Source: a virus. From it: 37,740 nt of DNA. This document shows positions 22,510 through 37,476 of this stretch, piece after piece. Where the stretch lies: positions 1-37,740 of IMG/VR virus record IMGVR_UViG_3300017782_000068. One strand, 5' to 3'. Below the pieces are notes generated by a model, which had not been told where the DNA came from, did not search any database, and worked only from the letters and a program-made list of their open reading frames with translations. The translations under genes and the position numbers were made by a program. Numbering within the stretch: the stretch's first letter is position 1; every line of letters begins with the position of its first letter.

Positions 22510-24585
22510 GTGTCACTTTTTAGTCGAACCAAAACAACTTACCAATCATCAACTGTATTAATATTTGATGATAAAAAAGGTCTGGTTAAATCTACTGTAT
22601 TGGCATCCACAATCCAGAACCAGAACATAGCAGAAGCTCTGCAGACTAACTTAATTAATGGTATTATGGCTCAAGGAAGAGCCATGTATGCCTACGGTAA
22701 GAGAGGTGACGTAAACCCAGCAAATGGCTATTACTTAGGCTTACCTTCAGGTAGTAAAGCTTATATACCTACAGGCATGCAGTCTACCATTAAGCTCATT
22801 ATAGAGGCTGAAATAGGTAGTAAAATATCACTTATAAATTCTTTCCTTGATAAAAATAATGCTGCTCACTATGCCCATGAGTATATGCAAACCAACTATG
22901 GTTGGGATGCTGGTTCAAATATTGTGTCTAATCCTCCGTTTAATTCAGGAGGTGCAACGGTTACTTTTGATTATGCTGAAGTAGTAGCAGACGACATTAT
23001 CAAAATATTCTATGCGTATGGCTCCCAAAGGCATGAGCAAGAATTATCTGTAACAGGACTGAGCGAAGAAAAACTCTATTATTATGCTACTTACTACTTA
23101 GTAGATAATCGCGGTCAAGTTACAGGAGAACCCCTTTATTGGAGATACAAAGAAGATACTGAAGTACATTACCAGTTAAATGTGGAAGATCCGTTAGAAG
23201 ATTTAGTTTCTCCTTACTACCCTATAGTGCCACTAAGACAAGATAAAGTTGACTTGACTTTGCCTGCTACACGCAATGAAGCGGAATACCAAAGCAGTAA
23301 ACAATGCTTACGTTATATAGGCGTAAACATAGATGACTTAGTAGATAGCGTAAATGATAGCCCCGACATTGGGTCTGTAGACCATGCCTACGTTATGCTG
23401 GGCATTGATGTAGCAAGTGAAAAAGAAAACTCTAAGCTATATTTATTTGAGTTTTTTAACGACTTACGTAGCACCTCCAGTACATATAAAACTGATTATG
23501 ATTATTGGTTTGCGCACGAGCAAAATAATACTACACCGCCAGTAAATACTTTAGTAGTGGCTGATGCTAAATATCGTATGGAACTATCGTGGAACTATAT
23601 TAGCAGAGACTTGATGAGCGGTAATATTGCTGCAGTTGGTTCAGTGGTAACAGCCATAGCCTCAGGTAGTTCTATTAATAATCCTTTGTATAGTTACCCA
23701 ACTTCCACCTTAATAATACGCAAGCAGATTGATACAGGTAACTATATAGAGTTACAAATTAAGGGGTTACAGCACCTTAATTATGTCTACGGTAGTAATG
23801 CGGTAATGACTACGCTGGAAGAAGCTTTTAGCGGTGATGATGAAAAACAGAATTTTATTATTCCACTCAATCAGTTTATTGCTCGTAACTTAGGTACCAT
23901 AAAATCTTACGATTTAATGTATGATGCGATAAGAATAGTATTTAATAGCAAAATAGTTACTAAATTGAAGTGGTATCAGACCAACTTTTTTAAGCTTGTG
24001 GTTACTATTGTAGCTATAGCTATTGCAGCTTACGGTTACGTTAAAGGAGGTATGGGTTTACTTGCTGCAATAGGCATTGCAACCATTGAGTCGCTTATTT
24101 TAAGTGCAGTGCTTAATAAGGTAACTGTGCAAGTTGCTGACTTGATAGGTGAAGAGCTGGCGTTAATACTGGCGATAGTAGCTACTGCTTACCAAGTTAC
24201 AATTAGCATTGAAGGTATTACAGCCACTGGAACATCTACTTTAAGTATGTTGAATGCTGCTTTATATGGCACAACAGGTTTAAGTAGCCTACGTGCACAG
24301 GGTAAGCTAAGAGACTTGCAGAGAGAGATGGATGCATTGAAAACTGAGCAGGAAGAGTTTGATGCGCTGTATGAGACTCTACCTGAAGATCCTTTAACTA
24401 CCTATGGTATTGGTTCAGAATATACTTTTTCTTTTGATGTTGTTGCAGACAGCCCAACGAGTTATTATACCCAAGCTATTCACACGGGTAATGTTGGTAT
24501 TTTATCAGTAGCTGCAACAGAATATTATGTAGCTAGTCAGCTTAGACTAGACTTACCTTATAACCCTATACGAACACGAGTCTAA
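22510..24585 (+). CDS. Virion protein with hydrophobic membrane-type segment, N4 gp53 position, 691 aa
   Basis: The start is GTG at 22510 (MSLFSRTK), nine bases after AGGG; the overlapping ATG at 22508 is in another frame. Residues 1-480 are mixed and aromatic-rich, soluble-looking. Residues about 493-566 hold three hydrophobic helices (FFKLVVTIVAIAIAAYGYV; GLLAAIGIATIESLILSAVL; ELALILAIVATAYQVTI). A charged helical stretch (LRDLQREMDALKTEQEEFDAL) and a short end follow. It lies among the genes that in N4 encode ejected or internal proteins next to the vRNAP. A plausible role is to enter the host inner membrane and form a conduit for vRNAP and DNA, inferred from the hydrophobic segment and position. 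I do not recognise a named family. Confidence 0.55.
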   Translation: MSLFSRTKTTYQSSTVLIFDDKKGLVKSTVLASTIQNQNIAEALQTNLINGIMAQGRAMYAYGKRGDVNPANGYYLGLPSGSKAYIPTGMQSTIKLIIEAEIGSKISLINSFLDKNNAAHYAHEYMQTNYGWDAGSNIVSNPPFNSGGATVTFDYAEVVADDIIKIFYAYGSQRHEQELSVTGLSEEKLYYYATYYLVDNRGQVTGEPLYWRYKEDTEVHYQLNVEDPLEDLVSPYYPIVPLRQDKVDLTLPATRNEAEYQSSKQCLRYIGVNIDDLVDSVNDSPDIGSVDHAYVMLGIDVASEKENSKLYLFEFFNDLRSTSSTYKTDYDYWFAHEQNNTTPPVNTLVVADAKYRMELSWNYISRDLMSGNIAAVGSVVTAIASGSSINNPLYSYPTSTLIIRKQIDTGNYIELQIKGLQHLNYVYGSNAVMTTLEEAFSGDDEKQNFIIPLNQFIARNLGTIKSYDLMYDAIRIVFNSKIVTKLKWYQTNFFKLVVTIVAIAIAAYGYVKGGMGLLAAIGIATIESLILSAVLNKVTVQVADLIGEELALILAIVATAYQVTISIEGITATGTSTLSMLNAALYGTTGLSSLRAQGKLRDLQREMDALKTEQEEFDALYETLPEDPLTTYGIGSEYTFSFDVVADSPTSYYTQAIHTGNVGILSVAATEYYVASQLRLDLPYNPIRTRV

Positions 24586-24598
24586 TGAGGAATATTTT

Positions 24599-25156
24599 AT
24601 GCCTTATAATTTTTTACAGTCAATCATGCCAATGAACACTCTAGCGCAGCCTACAACAAAGAGCACAAACTTTTTAGGCATGCCTAGTGCAGCACAAAAT
24701 ACTGGCATGTTCCAAGGCTATACTGGCCCAGATTTTAATTATTATTCGCTTGATCAGGGCAACAATTTTTTAGCTAGTAATCAGGCAGCACCTCAAATAC
24801 CTTCACCGCCTTCAATAGGCGGGATGCCTGATACAATGCGTTTTGCAAATACCAGTAATTATGCTGCGCCAAATTTTAGTTACCCTTCGTTTGACCAAGG
24901 TAATGATTTCTTGGGCGGTAATAAGCCAACACCCCAAACAGATTTCTTCGGTAACATTACAGGCACGGATGTAATGAACTTTGGTTTTGGTGCAGCTAAG
25001 ACTGCATTAGGAGCTTATATGCAAAACAAGCAAATCGGTCTTGCAGAAGACAACTTAGCGCTTAATAGGGATAAGTTTAATGATGTTAAGCAAGAGCGTC
25101 AGCTTATCAGAGATTCCATTTCTGAAGCCCGTAGAAAACAGGCAATGGGAGGTTAA
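24599..25156 (+). CDS. Asn/Pro-rich virion protein, N4 gp52 position, 185 aa
   Basis: The start is ATG 24599 with TGAGGA upstream. Residues 1-115 are disordered-looking and rich in Asn, Gln, Pro, Gly and Phe. One unit of about 25 residues occurs twice, 47 residues apart (GPDFNYYSLDQGNNFL near 43; APNFSYPSFDQGNDFL near 90). Residues 120-185 are helical and charged, with an Ala/Gly-rich start (DVMNFGFGAAKTALGAYMQN) and a basic end. Small proteins of this kind near internal virion proteins are often ejected with the DNA. There is no enzymatic motif. Confidence 0.55.
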   Translation: MPYNFLQSIMPMNTLAQPTTKSTNFLGMPSAAQNTGMFQGYTGPDFNYYSLDQGNNFLASNQAAPQIPSPPSIGGMPDTMRFANTSNYAAPNFSYPSFDQGNDFLGGNKPTPQTDFFGNITGTDVMNFGFGAAKTALGAYMQNKQIGLAEDNLALNRDKFNDVKQERQLIRDSISEARRKQAMGG

Positions 25157-25161
25157 TAGCA

Positions 25162-26532
25162 ATGGCTAGACCTATTACATTAGACAGCGTATTACAAAAT
25201 AACTTGTTAGAGCGTCAAAAAGCAACGGGGGAGTTACTTGCGCCTACTACTAATGCTGCACCTGCAGTAGCAAGTAATCCTATCAGCTTACTTTCTAGCG
25301 GGCTGAACCAAATGCAGCAAGGGGTAGGCGGACAGTTTACTAGAGCTGAGAACCAAAATGCCCAAGATACTTTAAACAGACTGGCTCAATTGGACGCAGC
25401 AGAGCAAGCAGAGCAAACTCAATATAATAGAGGATTGGATACTTTTAACCAAGAAAGTTCTCTTGCTGCACAGGCCTTAGCCAAAGCAAAGTTTGCTCAG
25501 CAAAATAAAACTCAAAGCTTATCTGATGCCTCCCAAAAAGCAAGAATTGATAGTATTAAGCAAGGCACAGCTTTGACAAGAAGAAAGTTTGACCAAGAAC
25601 AAAGAGAAAAAAAGGAAAATTTAGTAAAGGCTAATTTTAACGCAGACTTAGATAATAGGTTGTATGACCTTGTTAATCCTTTGCGTAATGCTCGTGCAAG
25701 CAATCAAAAATTAGCTCAACAAGCAGAGCAGTTAGGTTTAATATATGACACTAATACTAAGCAATTTGCAGATCCTACAGGCAACACTGCACCTGCACTT
25801 ATCGGTAGTATTAACTCTAGCCTAGTTCAAAATGATTTGACTGGTGCAGGCGTAAAAGCAAATCTGGCAAATCAGCTTGATGCTTTAGAAAAAGCAGGTA
25901 GAAGCACATTTACTACAACGGATGACCTATCTTTAGCTGATAGAAATAGGCTCAGCGAGCAACTAGTTAGTGAGATAAGCTCGACTTACCAGTTAGATGC
26001 TAATGAAGAAAAAGTACTAGCAGGTAAGATGGGAGGTATAGAAGCTAAAAGATCATCTGCTCTTAAATCTGCAGGACTAGACCAAACAACTCAATTAATG
26101 AATGAACTGCAAACTTTTAAATCTATGGTGGAAGAGGGTAAAACAGTGCCTAATCCTATTGTAGAATTTGTAAAAGGTTTGCCTGAAGAAGTATCAAATA
26201 GAGGTTATGTGCAGGAGCAAGTAAAAGATGCTATAAATACTTTTAAAGATACTAAAAATGGTCGTGATTTACCAGAGAATTACTTAAATGTTTTGCTTCA
26301 TAAAGTACTCCCTACTGCCTCTGTAGGGCAAACTCCATGGTACTGGAATGATGTTAATAACAACGAATTGGACAAAGGAAAGCTTCTTAAACGTATGCAA
26401 GATGAAAGCGTTCGTATACAAGCAGCGCTAGATAAGTTTAATCAACGAGATAAAATAAATAGGAAATATGACACAGAAGCACAAACAGAGCAATTGAGGG
26501 TATTCGCTAAGTCAGGTATCATAAGGAAATAG
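25162..26532 (+). CDS. Helical internal virion protein, N4 gp51 position, 456 aa
   Basis: The start is ATG 25162 with GGAGG ten bases upstream, inside the end of the preceding gene. The protein is nearly all helical, rich in Gln, Ala, Leu and Lys, with a strongly charged coiled coil at about residues 115-160 (FDQEQREKKENLVKANFNAD). There is no membrane segment, signal or catalytic motif. By order it equals gp51, a virion protein encoded just before the vRNAP gene in N4. It may package or escort the vRNAP in the head. The C-terminal third (residues about 380-456) is more globular with WYWNDVNNNELD. Confidence 0.6.
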   Translation: MARPITLDSVLQNNLLERQKATGELLAPTTNAAPAVASNPISLLSSGLNQMQQGVGGQFTRAENQNAQDTLNRLAQLDAAEQAEQTQYNRGLDTFNQESSLAAQALAKAKFAQQNKTQSLSDASQKARIDSIKQGTALTRRKFDQEQREKKENLVKANFNADLDNRLYDLVNPLRNARASNQKLAQQAEQLGLIYDTNTKQFADPTGNTAPALIGSINSSLVQNDLTGAGVKANLANQLDALEKAGRSTFTTTDDLSLADRNRLSEQLVSEISSTYQLDANEEKVLAGKMGGIEAKRSSALKSAGLDQTTQLMNELQTFKSMVEEGKTVPNPIVEFVKGLPEEVSNRGYVQEQVKDAINTFKDTKNGRDLPENYLNVLLHKVLPTASVGQTPWYWNDVNNNELDKGKLLKRMQDESVRIQAALDKFNQRDKINRKYDTEAQTEQLRVFAKSGIIRK

Positions 26533-29500: not shown

Positions 29501-32500
29501 GATTCAGAAAATCATTTTTTGCTGGGCCAATTACAGGAGGTTTAGCGTCAAAACCTGTGAATGCTCAGTGGTTAACTCAGTACAATGAATTGGCCGAAGA
29601 AGGTTCTATAAATAAAGCATCTCTTGTAGGTAATTCCACAAATGAAGATTTAACAGATAATTTTCTAGGCAAGGTAAAAGACAAAGTTAGTAGCCTAGGC
29701 CTTTCTTCTGCCGAAGCAGAGCAGTTTACTGGCATGGTAGACGCTTTAGGTTTAGATGGACTAGAAAATGATATATCAGATTTTCTTTATAAGAATGTTT
29801 TGAATAAGCTGGCCACTAAAGGCAAGAACGACAAAAAAGCTACCGTTAAGAATACTCCGTATAACAAAGCTAAAAGCGGCTTTAGAGCACTATTCCTGTC
29901 AAATGACCCATTGACTAAAGGCATGGATAAAATGCTCAGTAAGGCCTCTGTGTTGTCTATGACAGAGTTTCTTATGACTAAGTCTACAGGACTAACAAAA
30001 CAATCAGTTATAGCCATAAGCGGATTAGATCGTAAAGCTTCCCCATCAGGCCAATTAACAGACTATTTAGATGAAACTGGGGTAGGTTTTTCAAAAAATA
30101 ATGCTACCCAGGATCTAGGTAATAATGCTATTGCCATTGCTGGGATAGAATTTAGCGGTAAGCATGCCAATACTAAAAATAGAGTTAGAGATGCCCTTGG
30201 CTCAGTAATATTAGATTACATGGTTGATGCTGGCGTATTTAAAGAAGTAAAAATTTCGCGTAATAAAATGTTTCGTTTTGGTGCAAAGAATCCAATTAAA
30301 GGCATGCCTAACGTTATTAAATTAAATCAATTTCCAAGAAAAAAAGTTAGTTCAGGTAATAATCTTATTGAGTACAACGATGTACTTTACGTATGGAAGC
30401 CTTCAAATAATGCAAATAGAGGCTACTACACCATTGCTACTTTTGAAAATGCTGATAAACATACACAGTTTAAGTCTGTAGATGCTTTGAATACGTACAT
30501 ACCCAACAGAGAACATCCTCTTGTTAAATCCGTTTCTACAAAAGGAGAAGGCTTAAAAAGCAAATCAGGTTTATTTAGCAAGGTATTCGATACTGATTAT
30601 AATAAGTCAACTCCGTCTATAGGCAAGCCACATAAGGCAGTAAATAAAGCCATAAAAAATGGCGTTAACACTTTAAGTAAGCAAATGCAAAGTGTCGTAG
30701 AGAAGGCCAATAAGACACCTTTTTACCTAAATAAAACTATGGCTCAGCATATAGCTGCACTTGGCTCAGACAATTTAGGGCTTATGCTAGGTATGTTGCC
30801 TGAGGCAGGTGAAACTATTTTAGACGCAACCAAGGCATTAAATAAAAGTAAAAATCTAACTATAAGACAAGGTATTGATAACTATTATACTTTCTACAGA
30901 GATATGGTAGAGACCGTTAAAGATACTGGTATAACGTCTTCGTTATTCGATACGCCTATATTTTTTAACCATAGGGTCATTAGTAATTACCGTCTAACTG
31001 TTGATAGTAAAACTTTAAACTATCAAAGTAATAAACAGCTTCACCGCTTTGCGATAAATCTTGAGCCAAGGAAGTTAACTAAAAGCCCTGCAGGTAATAC
31101 TAAAGAGGAAGTATTATTTATGCTGGGTGTTGCTCAGGCATTAGATATAAGCGTAGATAAATTATCCCCAGAAACTGCTTTATTGCGTGTGCATGAAGAG
31201 CTTGATAAGCAGGAAATAAAGGAAATACTAGAAGTAGTACGTAAGCTAAACAAAGGAGAACAGGCAGATAACCTAGATTTATACGTTAATTATGTAAGAG
31301 ATCTTCAACTAGCAGGGCATCCTGCTATGCATACAGCCATGGGATTAGCTGAATATGTGAAGTATTTAGATGCAGTAGGTAAAGTGGAGGTAAGCTTGCC
31401 TATTGAACTTGACGGGGTAAACAATGGACCTATAACTGCATTAGTTAATTCAGTTAAAGATGCTGACCAACTAAAAACTTATCTTTTAAAAGGCGGTATC
31501 AGTGATGCTACGGATAGAAGAACTCATGCCCAAAGACTTGAAGCTGGCGTAGTTACTGGTTTATATGAAGAGACGCAAGAAGTCATAAATACTGCTTTAA
31601 ATAATACTTTGCTTACTGCCAGCGGCACAGATAAACAAATACTTTTAGCTCAGCTACGTTTAAAATCTTTGGGTAAATTAGTTGCTCTAGACAGTGAAGC
31701 TCTGACAGTAAGTGTTCATCGCAACGAGACTAAGTCTATTGTGACTGAAGCGTTTTATGGTGCAGGCACTAATTCGCTTGTACGCTCTGACATGGCGCAA
31801 ATAAAGGCTAATTTCTATGATCAAATGCAGAATATACGTACTAGCCATACTGACGAAAAAGGGCTAACTGACCATGGCGCAGCATTACTCAACTCCCTTA
31901 AATCAGATATTCTTGCAATGTCTGCGACGACTGAGTTGGTTGAATATGGTGAAGTAGTTAGAACATTTACTCAAGAGGAGTTAAGAGCAGAAGCTATTAA
32001 GAACAAAAAACTTATTGATCGTGCTATTCAAGAAGATAGGGCTAAAAATCCTGAGCATTTTGGTTTAGGGTTTACTTTACCTGAAGAATTAGAGCCGCAG
32101 ATGTTTATTAACCTTAAGAGTGGTTTTGGTTATTCAGGGGCTAAAGTAGGTGCTTTTAATGCGCATTATTCAGACGCTGTAGCGCACTTTACTTTAATTA
32201 GAGAAATGATGAATGCTGTTGCTCCGTTTGCTCGCCAAACTTATGAAAAAGCTTACCAAGAAGCTCTAGACAAAGCAGGCTATTCTGACTACCAAAGCTT
32301 ATCGACTACAGAAGAAAAAGCTGTACTCAAGTCTGTTATGAAATCTATGCCTACTCTTTCTTTAAATATTCATGACGATAAAGTGGATTACTCCGATGCG
32401 ATACCTCAATTTAAATGGGCGCAACCAGATGACATTGAATCAGCTTCTATAAAAAGACATTCTCTATCTACTGACCCTTCAGGCATTGTGTCAGGAGGCC

Positions 32501-35500
32501 AGACTGTTACACCTATTGCATCAGGGGCATTACCTTTGAGTACGCAAGGCATTGCAGATGCTTCAATGATTGCTGGTACTATTGCTAGCGGCCAAGATAT
32601 CATGCACGTATTTGACGGTATTTTATCTAATACACTGGATCAAGATGGACTGGCGCAAGTAAGTAACTTGGCCTACTTTGAATCTATTTTAAATAATCCC
32701 CAATTGCAACTGCACGTAGATGCAATGAAAAGAACATTGGGCGAGGATACCCAGTGGAAAGAAAGCATAGCAACGTTATCTGCAGTAGGCAAAGCAACTA
32801 TAGTGGATAACATAAAAGACGTGTCTACTGCTTTAAAAGACGCAGAAGGTAACACGTTAAGTTCGTGGGATATAAGCAAAGCGCTAAATACAAAAACTGT
32901 AACTAGAAATAAGCAAGTAGTTGCTAGTCCAGAGCTGGAATTACGCAAGTTAAATAAAGACTTAGACATGGCAGAAGTAGATGCTCTAATTGAGCGTTAC
33001 ATACCTACTTTAATTAGTAGAGCGGAAGATGCTGCAGCTCAAATAAGTCTAGTAGAGCAGCTAACTAAAGGTGATATGGCAGTGGATCAGATGGGCAACT
33101 TATCAGGCAATCCTACTGTAATATCCGCCGAAGACGGCATTAAAAATTCTGTATTTGCTAGTGCGCCTGATGTAACTAAATCATTGGATGAACAGGCAAC
33201 TAATACGCCTAATGATTTATTTTTTCCTCACACTAAAGATGACGGACTATCAGAGCACATAACTGCCCTTACTGATAGAGGCACTGGTAAAAATAGATCT
33301 GCTACCTCCCGTAGGCTTAATAAGCTCATAGATGCAAGTAATGCCACTCAGGCTTATAAAGACTTCCTTAAAAAAGTTTTAGTGACCTCTGTGTTATCCC
33401 CTGCATTCACGACTAAAGGCAGATTCCCTAGGATAGTAATTCAAGACAGTAATGTTACTTTGGCCATGGTTCAGCAGAAAGAAGGCAAAGAATTAAATGA
33501 ACAAGAACTGAAAAAATTAGAAGGTATTCGCAGAAGTAAGGGTATGTTTGACCCTTCGACTGGCACTATATATTTGCATGAAAATAATGGCGGTATAAAC
33601 ATTGAAACCTTGATGCATGAAATGGTGCATTCTGTATTAGATACTGGCTTAGTTGCTGAGATGAAAAACAACAAGGAGTTTTCTAAATTAATCACTCAAT
33701 TACAGGCAGATGCTACTAAGGAGATACAAGTAGAGTACATGCCTGAACATGGTTACACCCCTATAAGGTTTTCAGCCAAAGAGCTATTTGCATGGGGCTT
33801 AACTAATTTTAAATACGTAACTGCATTGGCAGAGAATAAAAATGAATCTGTAACAGCAGCTAGAGAAACTTTCGCTAAAAAGCTGTTAGCGGCCATCCGA
33901 AGAGTTATACGTAAAGTACTTGGCAAGACTAAGTTCCATGAAAATTCTATATTAAGTTTTCTTGTAGAAGCCTCATCAACTATTGCTAAAAACTCTACTG
34001 TTGAACCTGATGAAGCTAGCCAACATAAAACTCAAATTTCTTTGCAAGAAGTTGCTGTCTTAGACCCGGAAAGCACTTTTAATGGTCTTTTAGCAATGAG
34101 CAACAATACCTCTAAACATGCGGATGAATTATCAAGAATATTTAGAGAAGAAATATTACATCTCCAAACTAGCAAGAATGCTTTACTAAAAGATAAAGCA
34201 ACTAATGCGATGGAGACCTTAAGGGGGCTGGTGGAGGAAGGTGAGTCAAGTGCTCCTACTAGAATGGATACAGCTTTTGTTATGTCGCCAGCAGAGTCGT
34301 ACATGTACGATAACTATAAGCACATTATTCAAGTTGGTTTAGATAGCTTTAATATCAAGTCCCAAGAGCTAACTAAGTTATTCAATACTGCAAAAGCTAG
34401 AATTACCCCTACAGATTTTCTTACTGAAGGCGATACTAGTCCTGAAGCTATGGCGATAGCGCAAGAAAAATGGGATGCTCTATTTAATTCAGCAATAGCA
34501 ACAATTAAAAAAGTGCCACGTATTAACAAATTTGGTGCTAGTTACGTACGCACAGAATCTGAGTACTTATCTGAATTTGTTGCCATGACTAAAACTAACG
34601 AAGAAGTACGCCAAGTATTAGATAAACGTCTTGACCCTGTTAAAGAAGGTCGTTCAAACAACAAATTATCTAATGTAATTTTTAAGATTATTGATAAGGT
34701 GCATGCTGTACTTACGCAATCATTAACTGGCGCCAAAGGCAACCTTGCACGTAAGGTAGATATAGTTTCCAAGCGGCTGCTGTTAAGTGAATTCAGAGCT
34801 AAAAGTAAGTTAGAGCAGCGTGCAGTAGGTATGGTAGGCCAACTAGACAATACGTATACCACATACGCTAGCTGGGCTGACGCAGCATATAAAAAAGTGC
34901 TTGAGTCTTCTACTGTAAGCGGGATTAAAAGTGCTGCTAAGTCTACTGCCATGGGCGTTGCTACTACTATCAAAGGGACCAGTAATGCTAAGCAGGCTGA
35001 AGCATATAGCAAAATATTTCATGAACTACATCACGGGTATGGTTCTTTTATTCCTAGAGTAATTGAAGAAATAAGCCTTACCAATGACAACAATAAGTTT
35101 ATACGTCGTTTATTCATGGCTAAGAACAGGGCTATTGCTGGTTCAAGGGATGGCGCTATTAAGGCGGTGAGCAATAAAATACATGCAGAATTAGGGTCTT
35201 TACTGACTAAAAGCAACTCTGCTCATTACACTGAAGCAGTAGTAAATACAGATTTGTCCGCAATAACAAATGAATTTGATTTACAGCAAATAAGGGATTT
35301 ATATACAAATCCTGCGAAGTTAAATGAGGCAATTGCCAATTTAGAATCTAGGCTTACTGGTTCAAAAGCAAGTACTGCTTTGATTGATCATGCCCATAGC
35401 ATGGGCTGGTTAGCCATACATCATAAAGGCACTGAAAACACTACTTTTCCTAATGCAATATCTGCGGTAACTAAATTAAGCAGGGTATTTAAAGTTAATT

Positions 35501-37476
35501 TACTTGGGCTTGAAAAAGATGTCGATAAGCTAGCAACTTTGGTAGCTATCCAGCAGACTAGTCAAGGAGCCAAGGAGACTTTAGTAGAAGCTATTAAAGT
35601 TAATCCTAATGCGATTGCATCACTTATTAATATGCAGGCCGTACAGCGTCAGCAGGAGCTAAAGGATAAGTATCGTGGGGATAAATACGCACAGCTTAAG
35701 GGAGGTATTAGTGAAATACATGACCCTTATAGAGATGTACGTATCGTACCTGCGAAAGCTATAGAAGCATTAAGGCATGATGGTTACACTTCATTAGGGG
35801 AAATGCCTAGAAACCCTAGTGATACAAATAAAGACAAAATGTACATAATGTACTCCGACATAGGCGGGGCTGGTACTTACCAACAAGGGGCAGTCTCAAC
35901 AATTATTTCGGATACTCGTGGTATTGATAACTTAGACGGCAGAGGCATAACTGACGGGATTGATGATTACGCAAAAATAAATAAACACGCTAAAACCACA
36001 AAAGAAAACTACGAAAAAAGTATGAAGAGTACATCTTCTGTCCGTGGCATTAAGCGAGCTATTGTACAGTCTGGTACGTCTGCTGTAGTAAATAGTAAAG
36101 GCGATGTTACGGCGTATAAATACTCTATCTCTGCAGCCCAGAAAGAGACTATGCTTAACGCAGATAGGCGTATTGAGTCTGTGTTGCCTCACATGTACGG
36201 AAGAACCATAGAAGCAAGTCACAGTGATAACTATAACAAGTTGGTTAATGACGCTTTGGTCAACACGTATAAGCAAGACTTGGCTCAAGGTAATACAAAT
36301 GATTATGTGCAAATAGGTAAAAAGGCTAATACCAAAAGAGGAAGGGAAGCGTGGAGAATGTTACCTCCAAAAGCTAGAGCAGATTTGGCAGATAAATGGG
36401 GGGATACAGCTTACGTTAGAAGTAGCTTAATGGACCAAGTATTTGGTTATCGTAAAGCTTCTTTAGCCAATGTATTGCGAGCAAATTCAGATTCGCCTCA
36501 ATGGGCAAAATCAGTAATAAGAAATACTCTTGGTTTATTTATTTCGGATAAGGATTTAATTAGGGGCATTGTAAAAGGCGAGAAGGCTTTGACAGAGATT
36601 TCTTCTTACATAAAAGATTGGATTGTAGTCAGGGGACTGGAGGTATTGATAGGCAATGTACTGTCTAACACTGTTCAGTTAGTGCTAGAAAGCGAAGGTA
36701 TGTCTGTACGTAAAGCTATAGCTTATCAAATGGAAGGGTTGAAGTTAGCTAAAGTTTATCAAGAGAATCAGACTAAAATACGTAGGCTGGAATTTGATAT
36801 AAGCACTTCACTAGGAGACACTACAGCCATGCAGAATACACTAGCACAAATGCGCACAGAGCAGACGAAGAATGCTGCATCTGTACTTATTGATGCTGGC
36901 CTACTTACTGCTATTGTAGAGGATGTTGAAGTAGACACTAACCCTTACAACTCTATTACTAAATTAGGTGATAAAGCCAATTCTTTGAATAATAAATTGC
37001 CTGAAAGTGTTCAGTGGGTAACACGCAACTTAGCAGCCAGTAAAGAGTCGGAATGGTATAAAACAGCTTACCAGTTTACTCAGATTGGGGACTTTGGTGC
37101 TCGTTATGCTATGTACAAAAACTTAAAAGAACGTAACCAGATAACAGAAAATTCATTAGGTAATGTGATGGATTCCTTTGTTAACTATGATTTACCTTCA
37201 AATAAATATCTGCAGTACTTAGGTGACGTTGGTCAAGTATGGTTCTTAAAATACTTTATGCGGATACAGGCTGTTATAATCAAGAACACAGTGAATTCGC
37301 CCAGAAAAGTAATGGAACTTATGGCAGCTATTGGAACTTTAGGCGTAGATTTACCTACTTATTATGATGCCTTCTTCTTGTTTAATTCAATCACCAATAA
37401 ACTTGGATTAATGAATTACGCAGAAAAAGGCATTGATTCTATGCCTGTTTCTCATGTGGCAGAAACGTTGCTTTAG
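26563..37476 (+). CDS. Virion RNA polymerase (N4 gp50-like) fused to a zinc metallopeptidase domain, 3637 aa
   Basis: The giant vRNAP is packed in the head, injected with DNA and transcribes early genes; N4 gp50 is about 3500 residues. Residues about 1060-2180 are the polymerase. The T/RxxGR-like region is FFNHRVISNYRL (Arg1477). Motif A is LPIELDGVNNG (Asp1617). Motif B is RNETKSIVTEAFYG (Arg1720, Lys1724, Tyr1732), matching T7 spacing exactly. Motif C is DIMHVFDG (His2015, Asp2018). The spacings Arg-Asp 140, Asp-Lys 107 and Lys-Asp 294 are close to those I recall for N4 (135, 111, 281) and unlike T7. Next comes an HExxH metallopeptidase: TIYLHENNG, then MHEMVHSVLD (His2352, Glu2353, His2356) and AKELFAWG (Glu2407). 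The N-terminal 1000 residues are helical. The C-terminus (FVNYDLPSNKYLQYL, VWFLKYFMRIQAV) looks like vRNAP packaging ends. The start is ATG 26563. Confidence 0.9.
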   Translation: MSTDFLTLTSSIDTAQNEFIDDPSSLLDSKREAVKNAAVDKQSRLQGSESVFSLAEFDKRFPFATAAQRMEFNQENNLRQQTLNQSNIVQDGLVGAAQMGVSIAETAPALAKAFTSPADIVRGGRSGFQWVADKLGYGDSFREAVTPEEGGYIDKLSKDLDSMAQNDPTVKAINTVLDPILAVGSSIKKGLGTLKSDEGNARKVQIAKDIAAYEQGIDDALPDNATPAQIRSAEFAKAKFAVGHTGVSGVVESAIETIPLILKVASTASKVKEREIETAGPISSEALEKRIDKKVGAATSTEIGKIEGASNFTQSYDEVMSLSQEDLDKSPEYQKLRLTMSKEDARKALASKVATQVGSGSALLGKAAAKVFGVGLEKIAGGVKTKAAGSKLKQTAISSVGEFLEEGVQSGGGKALSNQAIKENIDKDLDTSKGVSSATAVGAVTGLGSSLMTAGGINLLNSAAEKSSAKDAEGVNLEKELNSTLVQGNQAVEQAPKNADGKVNLSAMSKEQKIAYAKAKLAQLDEEAKIDLLEQEGKQSPEVIEQARAKLDAANAANSLLGQDIITKSTDSDIVELNEKAKNENQLVKDFLGDLSLHLSNEDSGNAISVESLTSARNTAKELGAKESELALIDELIAVRKTSKEVSEDIIIGSEEWRGGGTYLNNVLRGIANNAPAYVAKQVAEVERFISHMDNKVAAFQKALEESSATGEVVTPLNPEGVPYKQVNGTGDMWVKAGTSENVIATMQTDANSLKQIGATINAAVADTSLKDTVETVVSNLSETVEEDVPSQAEELANQISTFPKPDNIPSKEFADIQKSFLDATKEASDIPAAIEPVLQKIQQEGSTEALAVANELAVSLGVSPVEKVVEFTGSAERVAQRVQNLINLPKGTDSEFLAEPEAIAPFIARAREGASSRALSDAVNDLGKVLTGGLAAEEFIDQTPAKLLDGATELLGNAIDDENFGQKEITTGSERVASGFRKSFFAGPITGGLASKPVNAQWLTQYNELAEEGSINKASLVGNSTNEDLTDNFLGKVKDKVSSLGLSSAEAEQFTGMVDALGLDGLENDISDFLYKNVLNKLATKGKNDKKATVKNTPYNKAKSGFRALFLSNDPLTKGMDKMLSKASVLSMTEFLMTKSTGLTKQSVIAISGLDRKASPSGQLTDYLDETGVGFSKNNATQDLGNNAIAIAGIEFSGKHANTKNRVRDALGSVILDYMVDAGVFKEVKISRNKMFRFGAKNPIKGMPNVIKLNQFPRKKVSSGNNLIEYNDVLYVWKPSNNANRGYYTIATFENADKHTQFKSVDALNTYIPNREHPLVKSVSTKGEGLKSKSGLFSKVFDTDYNKSTPSIGKPHKAVNKAIKNGVNTLSKQMQSVVEKANKTPFYLNKTMAQHIAALGSDNLGLMLGMLPEAGETILDATKALNKSKNLTIRQGIDNYYTFYRDMVETVKDTGITSSLFDTPIFFNHRVISNYRLTVDSKTLNYQSNKQLHRFAINLEPRKLTKSPAGNTKEEVLFMLGVAQALDISVDKLSPETALLRVHEELDKQEIKEILEVVRKLNKGEQADNLDLYVNYVRDLQLAGHPAMHTAMGLAEYVKYLDAVGKVEVSLPIELDGVNNGPITALVNSVKDADQLKTYLLKGGISDATDRRTHAQRLEAGVVTGLYEETQEVINTALNNTLLTASGTDKQILLAQLRLKSLGKLVALDSEALTVSVHRNETKSIVTEAFYGAGTNSLVRSDMAQIKANFYDQMQNIRTSHTDEKGLTDHGAALLNSLKSDILAMSATTELVEYGEVVRTFTQEELRAEAIKNKKLIDRAIQEDRAKNPEHFGLGFTLPEELEPQMFINLKSGFGYSGAKVGAFNAHYSDAVAHFTLIREMMNAVAPFARQTYEKAYQEALDKAGYSDYQSLSTTEEKAVLKSVMKSMPTLSLNIHDDKVDYSDAIPQFKWAQPDDIESASIKRHSLSTDPSGIVSGGQTVTPIASGALPLSTQGIADASMIAGTIASGQDIMHVFDGILSNTLDQDGLAQVSNLAYFESILNNPQLQLHVDAMKRTLGEDTQWKESIATLSAVGKATIVDNIKDVSTALKDAEGNTLSSWDISKALNTKTVTRNKQVVASPELELRKLNKDLDMAEVDALIERYIPTLISRAEDAAAQISLVEQLTKGDMAVDQMGNLSGNPTVISAEDGIKNSVFASAPDVTKSLDEQATNTPNDLFFPHTKDDGLSEHITALTDRGTGKNRSATSRRLNKLIDASNATQAYKDFLKKVLVTSVLSPAFTTKGRFPRIVIQDSNVTLAMVQQKEGKELNEQELKKLEGIRRSKGMFDPSTGTIYLHENNGGINIETLMHEMVHSVLDTGLVAEMKNNKEFSKLITQLQADATKEIQVEYMPEHGYTPIRFSAKELFAWGLTNFKYVTALAENKNESVTAARETFAKKLLAAIRRVIRKVLGKTKFHENSILSFLVEASSTIAKNSTVEPDEASQHKTQISLQEVAVLDPESTFNGLLAMSNNTSKHADELSRIFREEILHLQTSKNALLKDKATNAMETLRGLVEEGESSAPTRMDTAFVMSPAESYMYDNYKHIIQVGLDSFNIKSQELTKLFNTAKARITPTDFLTEGDTSPEAMAIAQEKWDALFNSAIATIKKVPRINKFGASYVRTESEYLSEFVAMTKTNEEVRQVLDKRLDPVKEGRSNNKLSNVIFKIIDKVHAVLTQSLTGAKGNLARKVDIVSKRLLLSEFRAKSKLEQRAVGMVGQLDNTYTTYASWADAAYKKVLESSTVSGIKSAAKSTAMGVATTIKGTSNAKQAEAYSKIFHELHHGYGSFIPRVIEEISLTNDNNKFIRRLFMAKNRAIAGSRDGAIKAVSNKIHAELGSLLTKSNSAHYTEAVVNTDLSAITNEFDLQQIRDLYTNPAKLNEAIANLESRLTGSKASTALIDHAHSMGWLAIHHKGTENTTFPNAISAVTKLSRVFKVNLLGLEKDVDKLATLVAIQQTSQGAKETLVEAIKVNPNAIASLINMQAVQRQQELKDKYRGDKYAQLKGGISEIHDPYRDVRIVPAKAIEALRHDGYTSLGEMPRNPSDTNKDKMYIMYSDIGGAGTYQQGAVSTIISDTRGIDNLDGRGITDGIDDYAKINKHAKTTKENYEKSMKSTSSVRGIKRAIVQSGTSAVVNSKGDVTAYKYSISAAQKETMLNADRRIESVLPHMYGRTIEASHSDNYNKLVNDALVNTYKQDLAQGNTNDYVQIGKKANTKRGREAWRMLPPKARADLADKWGDTAYVRSSLMDQVFGYRKASLANVLRANSDSPQWAKSVIRNTLGLFISDKDLIRGIVKGEKALTEISSYIKDWIVVRGLEVLIGNVLSNTVQLVLESEGMSVRKAIAYQMEGLKLAKVYQENQTKIRRLEFDISTSLGDTTAMQNTLAQMRTEQTKNAASVLIDAGLLTAIVEDVEVDTNPYNSITKLGDKANSLNNKLPESVQWVTRNLAASKESEWYKTAYQFTQIGDFGARYAMYKNLKERNQITENSLGNVMDSFVNYDLPSNKYLQYLGDVGQVWFLKYFMRIQAVIIKNTVNSPRKVMELMAAIGTLGVDLPTYYDAFFLFNSITNKLGLMNYAEKGIDSMPVSHVAETLL

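Follow-up and report, generated by a model that had tools for sequence, protein, structure and literature searches.

The window encodes an N4-like virion RNA polymerase

The window, the whole 37,740-nucleotide stretch of viral DNA analysed here, is a 37.7-kb virus record that is probably a fragment. It contains an ORF for a 3637-residue protein orthologous to gp50, the virion RNA polymerase (vRNAP) of phage N4 (Table 1). In keeping with an N4-like vRNAP, the polypeptide is very large, contains the polymerase motifs A, B, and C, and is preceded by N4-like portal, major head, and terminase genes. Asp2018, which a preliminary description of this DNA had taken as the last catalytic residue, is the motif C aspartate and aligns with the FDG of N4. 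A megablast search with the region matched no phage record. In several phage records the vRNAP gene is labelled DNA polymerase or translation initiation factor 2, or its function is given as unknown.

The three genes directly upstream were assigned by their position. The first matches PHROG 2220, a family of unknown function, and its place suggests a gp53-like gene with, presumably, a corresponding function. The two ORFs that follow had no match in the PHROG search and may be the counterparts of the N4 ejection proteins gp52 and gp51, which would reproduce the N4 order gp53-52-51-50.

Table 1. Positions of the vRNAP gene, its putative neighbours, and the features of its polymerase and C1 domains in the window.
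Feature	Position (nt)	Strand	Evidence
N4 gp53-like gene by position, 5' of ejection-protein genes	22510..24585	+	PHROG 2220, E=1e-113
Two ORFs (24599-25156 and 25162-26532) at N4 gp52/gp51 ejection-protein positions	24599..26532	+	Position only
Virion RNA polymerase (N4 gp50 orthologue), 3637 aa	26563..37476	+	PHROG 2206, E=0; co-linear with N4 vRNAP
Polymerase motif A aspartate, D1617	31411..31413	+	Invariant 25/25
Polymerase motif B region, K1724 and Y1732	31732..31758	+	Invariant 25/25
Polymerase motif C aspartate, D2018	32614..32616	+	Aligned with N4 FDG; invariant 25/25
Variable stretch between polymerase and C1, ~residues 2181-2262, position of N4 linker 2102-2123	33103..33348	+	No conserved motif; dN/dS 0.16
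C1 zincin-like metallopeptidase domain and trailing helices, ~residues 2263-2480	33349..34002	+	Profile of 46 relatives vs N4 PDB chains; AF2 core model
Edge strand TIYLH, residues 2335-2339	33565..33579	+	Strand in both AF2 models
HEMVH, residues 2352-2356	33616..33630	+	H, E, H invariant 25/25, and 66/66 in wider set
KELFAWGLTN, residues 2406-2415, holding Glu2407	33778..33807	+	E2407, L2413, N2415 invariant

A zincin-like domain follows the polymerase

The preliminary description had placed a gluzincin-like HExxH...E domain in this protein, with a TIYLH strand, the HEMVH motif, and a distal glutamate. All of these elements are found in the ORF, and Glu2407 (codon at nt 33781–33783) lies 51 residues C-terminal of His2356. 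HEMVH is predicted to provide two zinc ligands and the general base Glu2353, and Glu2407 the third ligand. This corresponds to the gluzincin layout of an HExxH and a third-ligand glutamate in a downstream helix, as Glu2407 is invariant and lies in a predicted helix. Shuffled copies of the vRNAP protein contain 0.043 HExxH motifs on average. By itself, an HExxH is weak evidence, and a second one, HELHH, occurs at residue 2820; it is shared with the 90%-identical relative L002, is unconserved elsewhere, and was treated as chance. HEMVH is significant because it is conserved across vRNAPs. None of the curated Pfam metallopeptidase families (SprT-like, DUF6782, M91) reached its cut-off, the best being DUF6782, whose 16.5 bits fall short of the required 27.

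When the window protein was aligned with the vRNAPs of N4 and of three Vibrio phages, HEMVH coincided with HELVH of N4 (residue 2228) and KELFAWGLTN with NEFMAWGLAN. A profile of 46 relatives matched the N4 PDB chains across the whole domain (E ~1e-103). One phmmer alignment, of window residues 2459–2546 to N4 2014–2104 (4 bits), was discarded as spurious, since the flanking alignments are co-linear. The N4 domain, C1 (residues 2124–2375; PDB 9pnr, 9pnt, 9pnw, 9pnq, 9pnv, 11gp), likewise sits directly after the polymerase domain and is followed by a co-linear C2 region. Over C1 the two proteins share ~23% identity, and the distance from the first histidine to the distal glutamate is 55 residues here and 82 in N4.

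Containing an HExxH, C-terminal to the polymerase, and orthologous to N4 C1, the domain is of the zincin-like MPTase type of Iyer et al. (2017; PMC5512222), to which it adds a new sequence from a divergent phage. A metallopeptidase domain in N4-like vRNAPs is thus already known, and the phage analysed here is a new, divergent member. The preliminary description implied that no protease role had been described for N4 vRNAP, which does not hold. At the equivalent place in N4-like vRNAPs, Iyer et al. (2017; PMC5512222) had recognised a zincin-like metallopeptidase. They found the zincin-like MPTase of polyvalent proteins to be always fused to N4-like RNA polymerases, linked it to the lethal factor fold by HHpred, and, like the preliminary description, suggested that it might process the vRNAP itself or cleave a host protein. 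The C-terminal domain (CTD) is resolved in a cryo-EM preprint on N4 from 2025 (PMC12633501), which places C1 with its conserved HExxH within that structure. The literature searched reported no zinc, peptidase activity, or substrate for vRNAP C1. New relative to these publications are the invariance of the motif residues in 25 vRNAPs, the dN/dS comparison, the predicted core model, and the homologous module in phiKMV-type ejection proteins.

Conservation of the C1 domain

The vRNAPs of named phages were gathered by using as query the N4 segment that runs from the polymerase end through C1, the motif not being required; the resulting set of 25 also takes in one probable Alteromonas prophage locus, located by motif patterns in a scan of genome contigs. 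All 25 vRNAPs retain H2352, E2353, H2356, and E2407, in an alignment that is partly anchored by the same motifs whose conservation is counted. The random loss among relatives that would have spoken against the domain did not occur. Only 47 of the 3637 positions are invariant in this set, six of them in C1, including these four, and the mean pairwise identity of the C1 domain is 0.26 (22 distinct phage sequences). The four residues are no less strictly conserved than the catalytic residues of the polymerase. A wider set also showed all four in 66/66 sequences; because it was partly retrieved by motif patterns and is biased, the conservation claim rests on the 25 vRNAPs.

Compared with L002, dN/dS is 0.056 for C1, 0.058 for the polymerase, and 0.16 for the variable stretch between them. 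Purifying selection on C1 is equal to that on the polymerase (dN/dS ~0.06).

In the Alteromonas sp. BMJM2 contig (L079), a bacterial genome record, an ORF resembling vRNAP spans at least 3351 residues and contains HELLH and KELLAWGLTN; the locus is probably an N4-like prophage.

Predicted fold of the C1 core

An AF2 model of the C1 core (170 residues, mean pLDDT 78.8) shows the order helix, strand, helix, helix, strand, strand, HExxH helix, helix, and Glu helix, a predicted zincin secondary structure with zincin-like topology. A Foldseek search of this core against the PDB gave no match at E <= 0.001. The nearest solved folds were all zincins, namely anthrax lethal factor (prob 0.85), jannalysin, and selecase, with E values of 0.08 or worse. 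The lethal factor catalytic domain and the minigluzincins jannalysin and selecase are, like C1, Glu-type zincins; the likeness is at the level of the fold, and neither the sequence nor the structure scores are significant. Against the viral library, the core scored best with the SBP1 vRNAP (E 2e-5); polyvalent-protein and SprT-like entries ranked lower. When the full-length domain was modelled, its low-confidence tail led to meaningless matches with folds such as 14-3-3, and trimming to the core removed them. Together with the orthology to N4 C1 and the strict conservation, the predicted zincin-like fold supports the gluzincin-like reading of the preliminary description. In such a fold, H2352, H2356, and E2407 would most likely bind one zinc, and E2353 may act as the general base.

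A related module in phiKMV-type ejection proteins

The profile of relatives also matched PDB 9sfn_G, a 1337-residue internal virion protein (E 6e-11), whose matching segment is identical to gp37 of LKD16 (L078; Autographiviridae). Further matches with an HExxH were found in Xanthomonas phage GF2 and Variovorax phage VAC_51 and, weakly (E 0.002), in Pantoea phage LIMElight. An alignment of vRNAP C1 with the Autographiviridae internal virion proteins (L078, L080, L081, L082) shows a common HExxH, distal glutamate, and trailing helices; in LKD16 gp37 these include HEAVH and KELVAWGLT. Pfam reported no peptidase at the module in any of the four proteins. Unlike the vRNAPs, LKD16 gp37 is annotated as an internal virion protein with an endolysin domain, and no polymerase is annotated; the non-polymerase status of the phiKMV-type proteins rests on this kind of annotation and on Pfam.

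The phiKMV gp37 protein is a gp16-class ejection protein (PMC8954989). Neither peptidases nor proteases are mentioned in that review, and Iyer et al. (PMC5512222) refer in their main text to neither phiKMV nor internal virion proteins; a link between vRNAP C1 and phiKMV-type gp37 was not found in the literature searched.

Possible roles of C1

Residues ~2263–2480 thus form a C1 zincin-like metallopeptidase domain orthologous to that of N4 gp50, probably a one-zinc enzyme acting after ejection. The four catalytic-type residues are as invariant as the catalytic residues of the polymerase, which makes an active role likely. C1 would be carried in the virion within the giant ejected protein, delivered with the ejectosome as an active zinc peptidase, and would work after ejection. 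We tentatively favour a substrate in trans over self-cleavage; it could be a protein of the host or another member of the ejectosome. That the module is shared with phiKMV-type proteins suggests that it serves ejection or takeover rather than the release of the polymerase. It may even serve podovirus ejectosomes in general (Schitoviridae vRNAPs and phiKMV-type gp37) as a metallopeptidase that, after ejection, cuts a host or envelope protein in trans and not the polymerase, a broader view that we regard as doubtful.

Self-processing, in which C1 would cut the vRNAP after ejection, either in the linker before C1 or in the linker after the N-terminal membrane domain, and so free the polymerase from the autoinhibitory CTD or from its membrane anchor, appears rather unlikely. 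Such self-release is attractive because the N4 CTD lowers transcription by the polymerase, an autoinhibitory role, and a flexible 22-residue linker sets it apart from the polymerase (PMC12633501). Moreover, P1 DdrB, which bears a similar domain, is processed, and self-processing was proposed by Iyer et al. (PMC5512222). However, recombinant full-length N4 vRNAP gave no evidence of degradation (PMC12633501), N4 vRNAP is packaged unprocessed (cited in PMC5512222), and the linker is unconserved among relatives in both sequence and length, with no common cleavage motif seen in it. The idea of freeing the polymerase is further weakened by the occurrence of the module in ejection proteins that carry no polymerase annotation.

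A pseudo-enzyme or structural zinc site that holds the fold of the CTD without cutting would agree with the regulatory role of the CTD (PMC12633501) and with the literature searched, in which no activity is reported. The general-base Glu2353 would be dispensable for a purely structural site, yet it is invariant in 25/25 vRNAPs, which makes this explanation improbable. Distinctly improbable is a maturation protease acting on capsid or ejection proteins before or during packaging and silent later: Iyer et al. (PMC5512222) list head processing as a possibility and the domain region is cited as needed for encapsidation, but that requirement may be structural, and the unprocessed packaging of N4 vRNAP argues against such a protease as well. 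Most improbable is an HExxH enzyme other than a peptidase, for example an alpha-ketoglutarate HExxH oxygenase. The N4 authors cite radical SAM and alphaKG-HExxH proteins beside zincins by motif (PMC12633501), but the nearest solved folds are zincin peptidases and the invariant distal glutamate in a later helix fits gluzincins.

The C2 region

No Pfam family scored above its cut-off in C2 (residues 2501–3637, window positions 34063–37473), which probably has a conserved function. It holds 23 positions invariant in the 25 vRNAPs, many of them charged or polar, for example R2862, D2897, D2988, K3046, R3297, E3340, and D3510.
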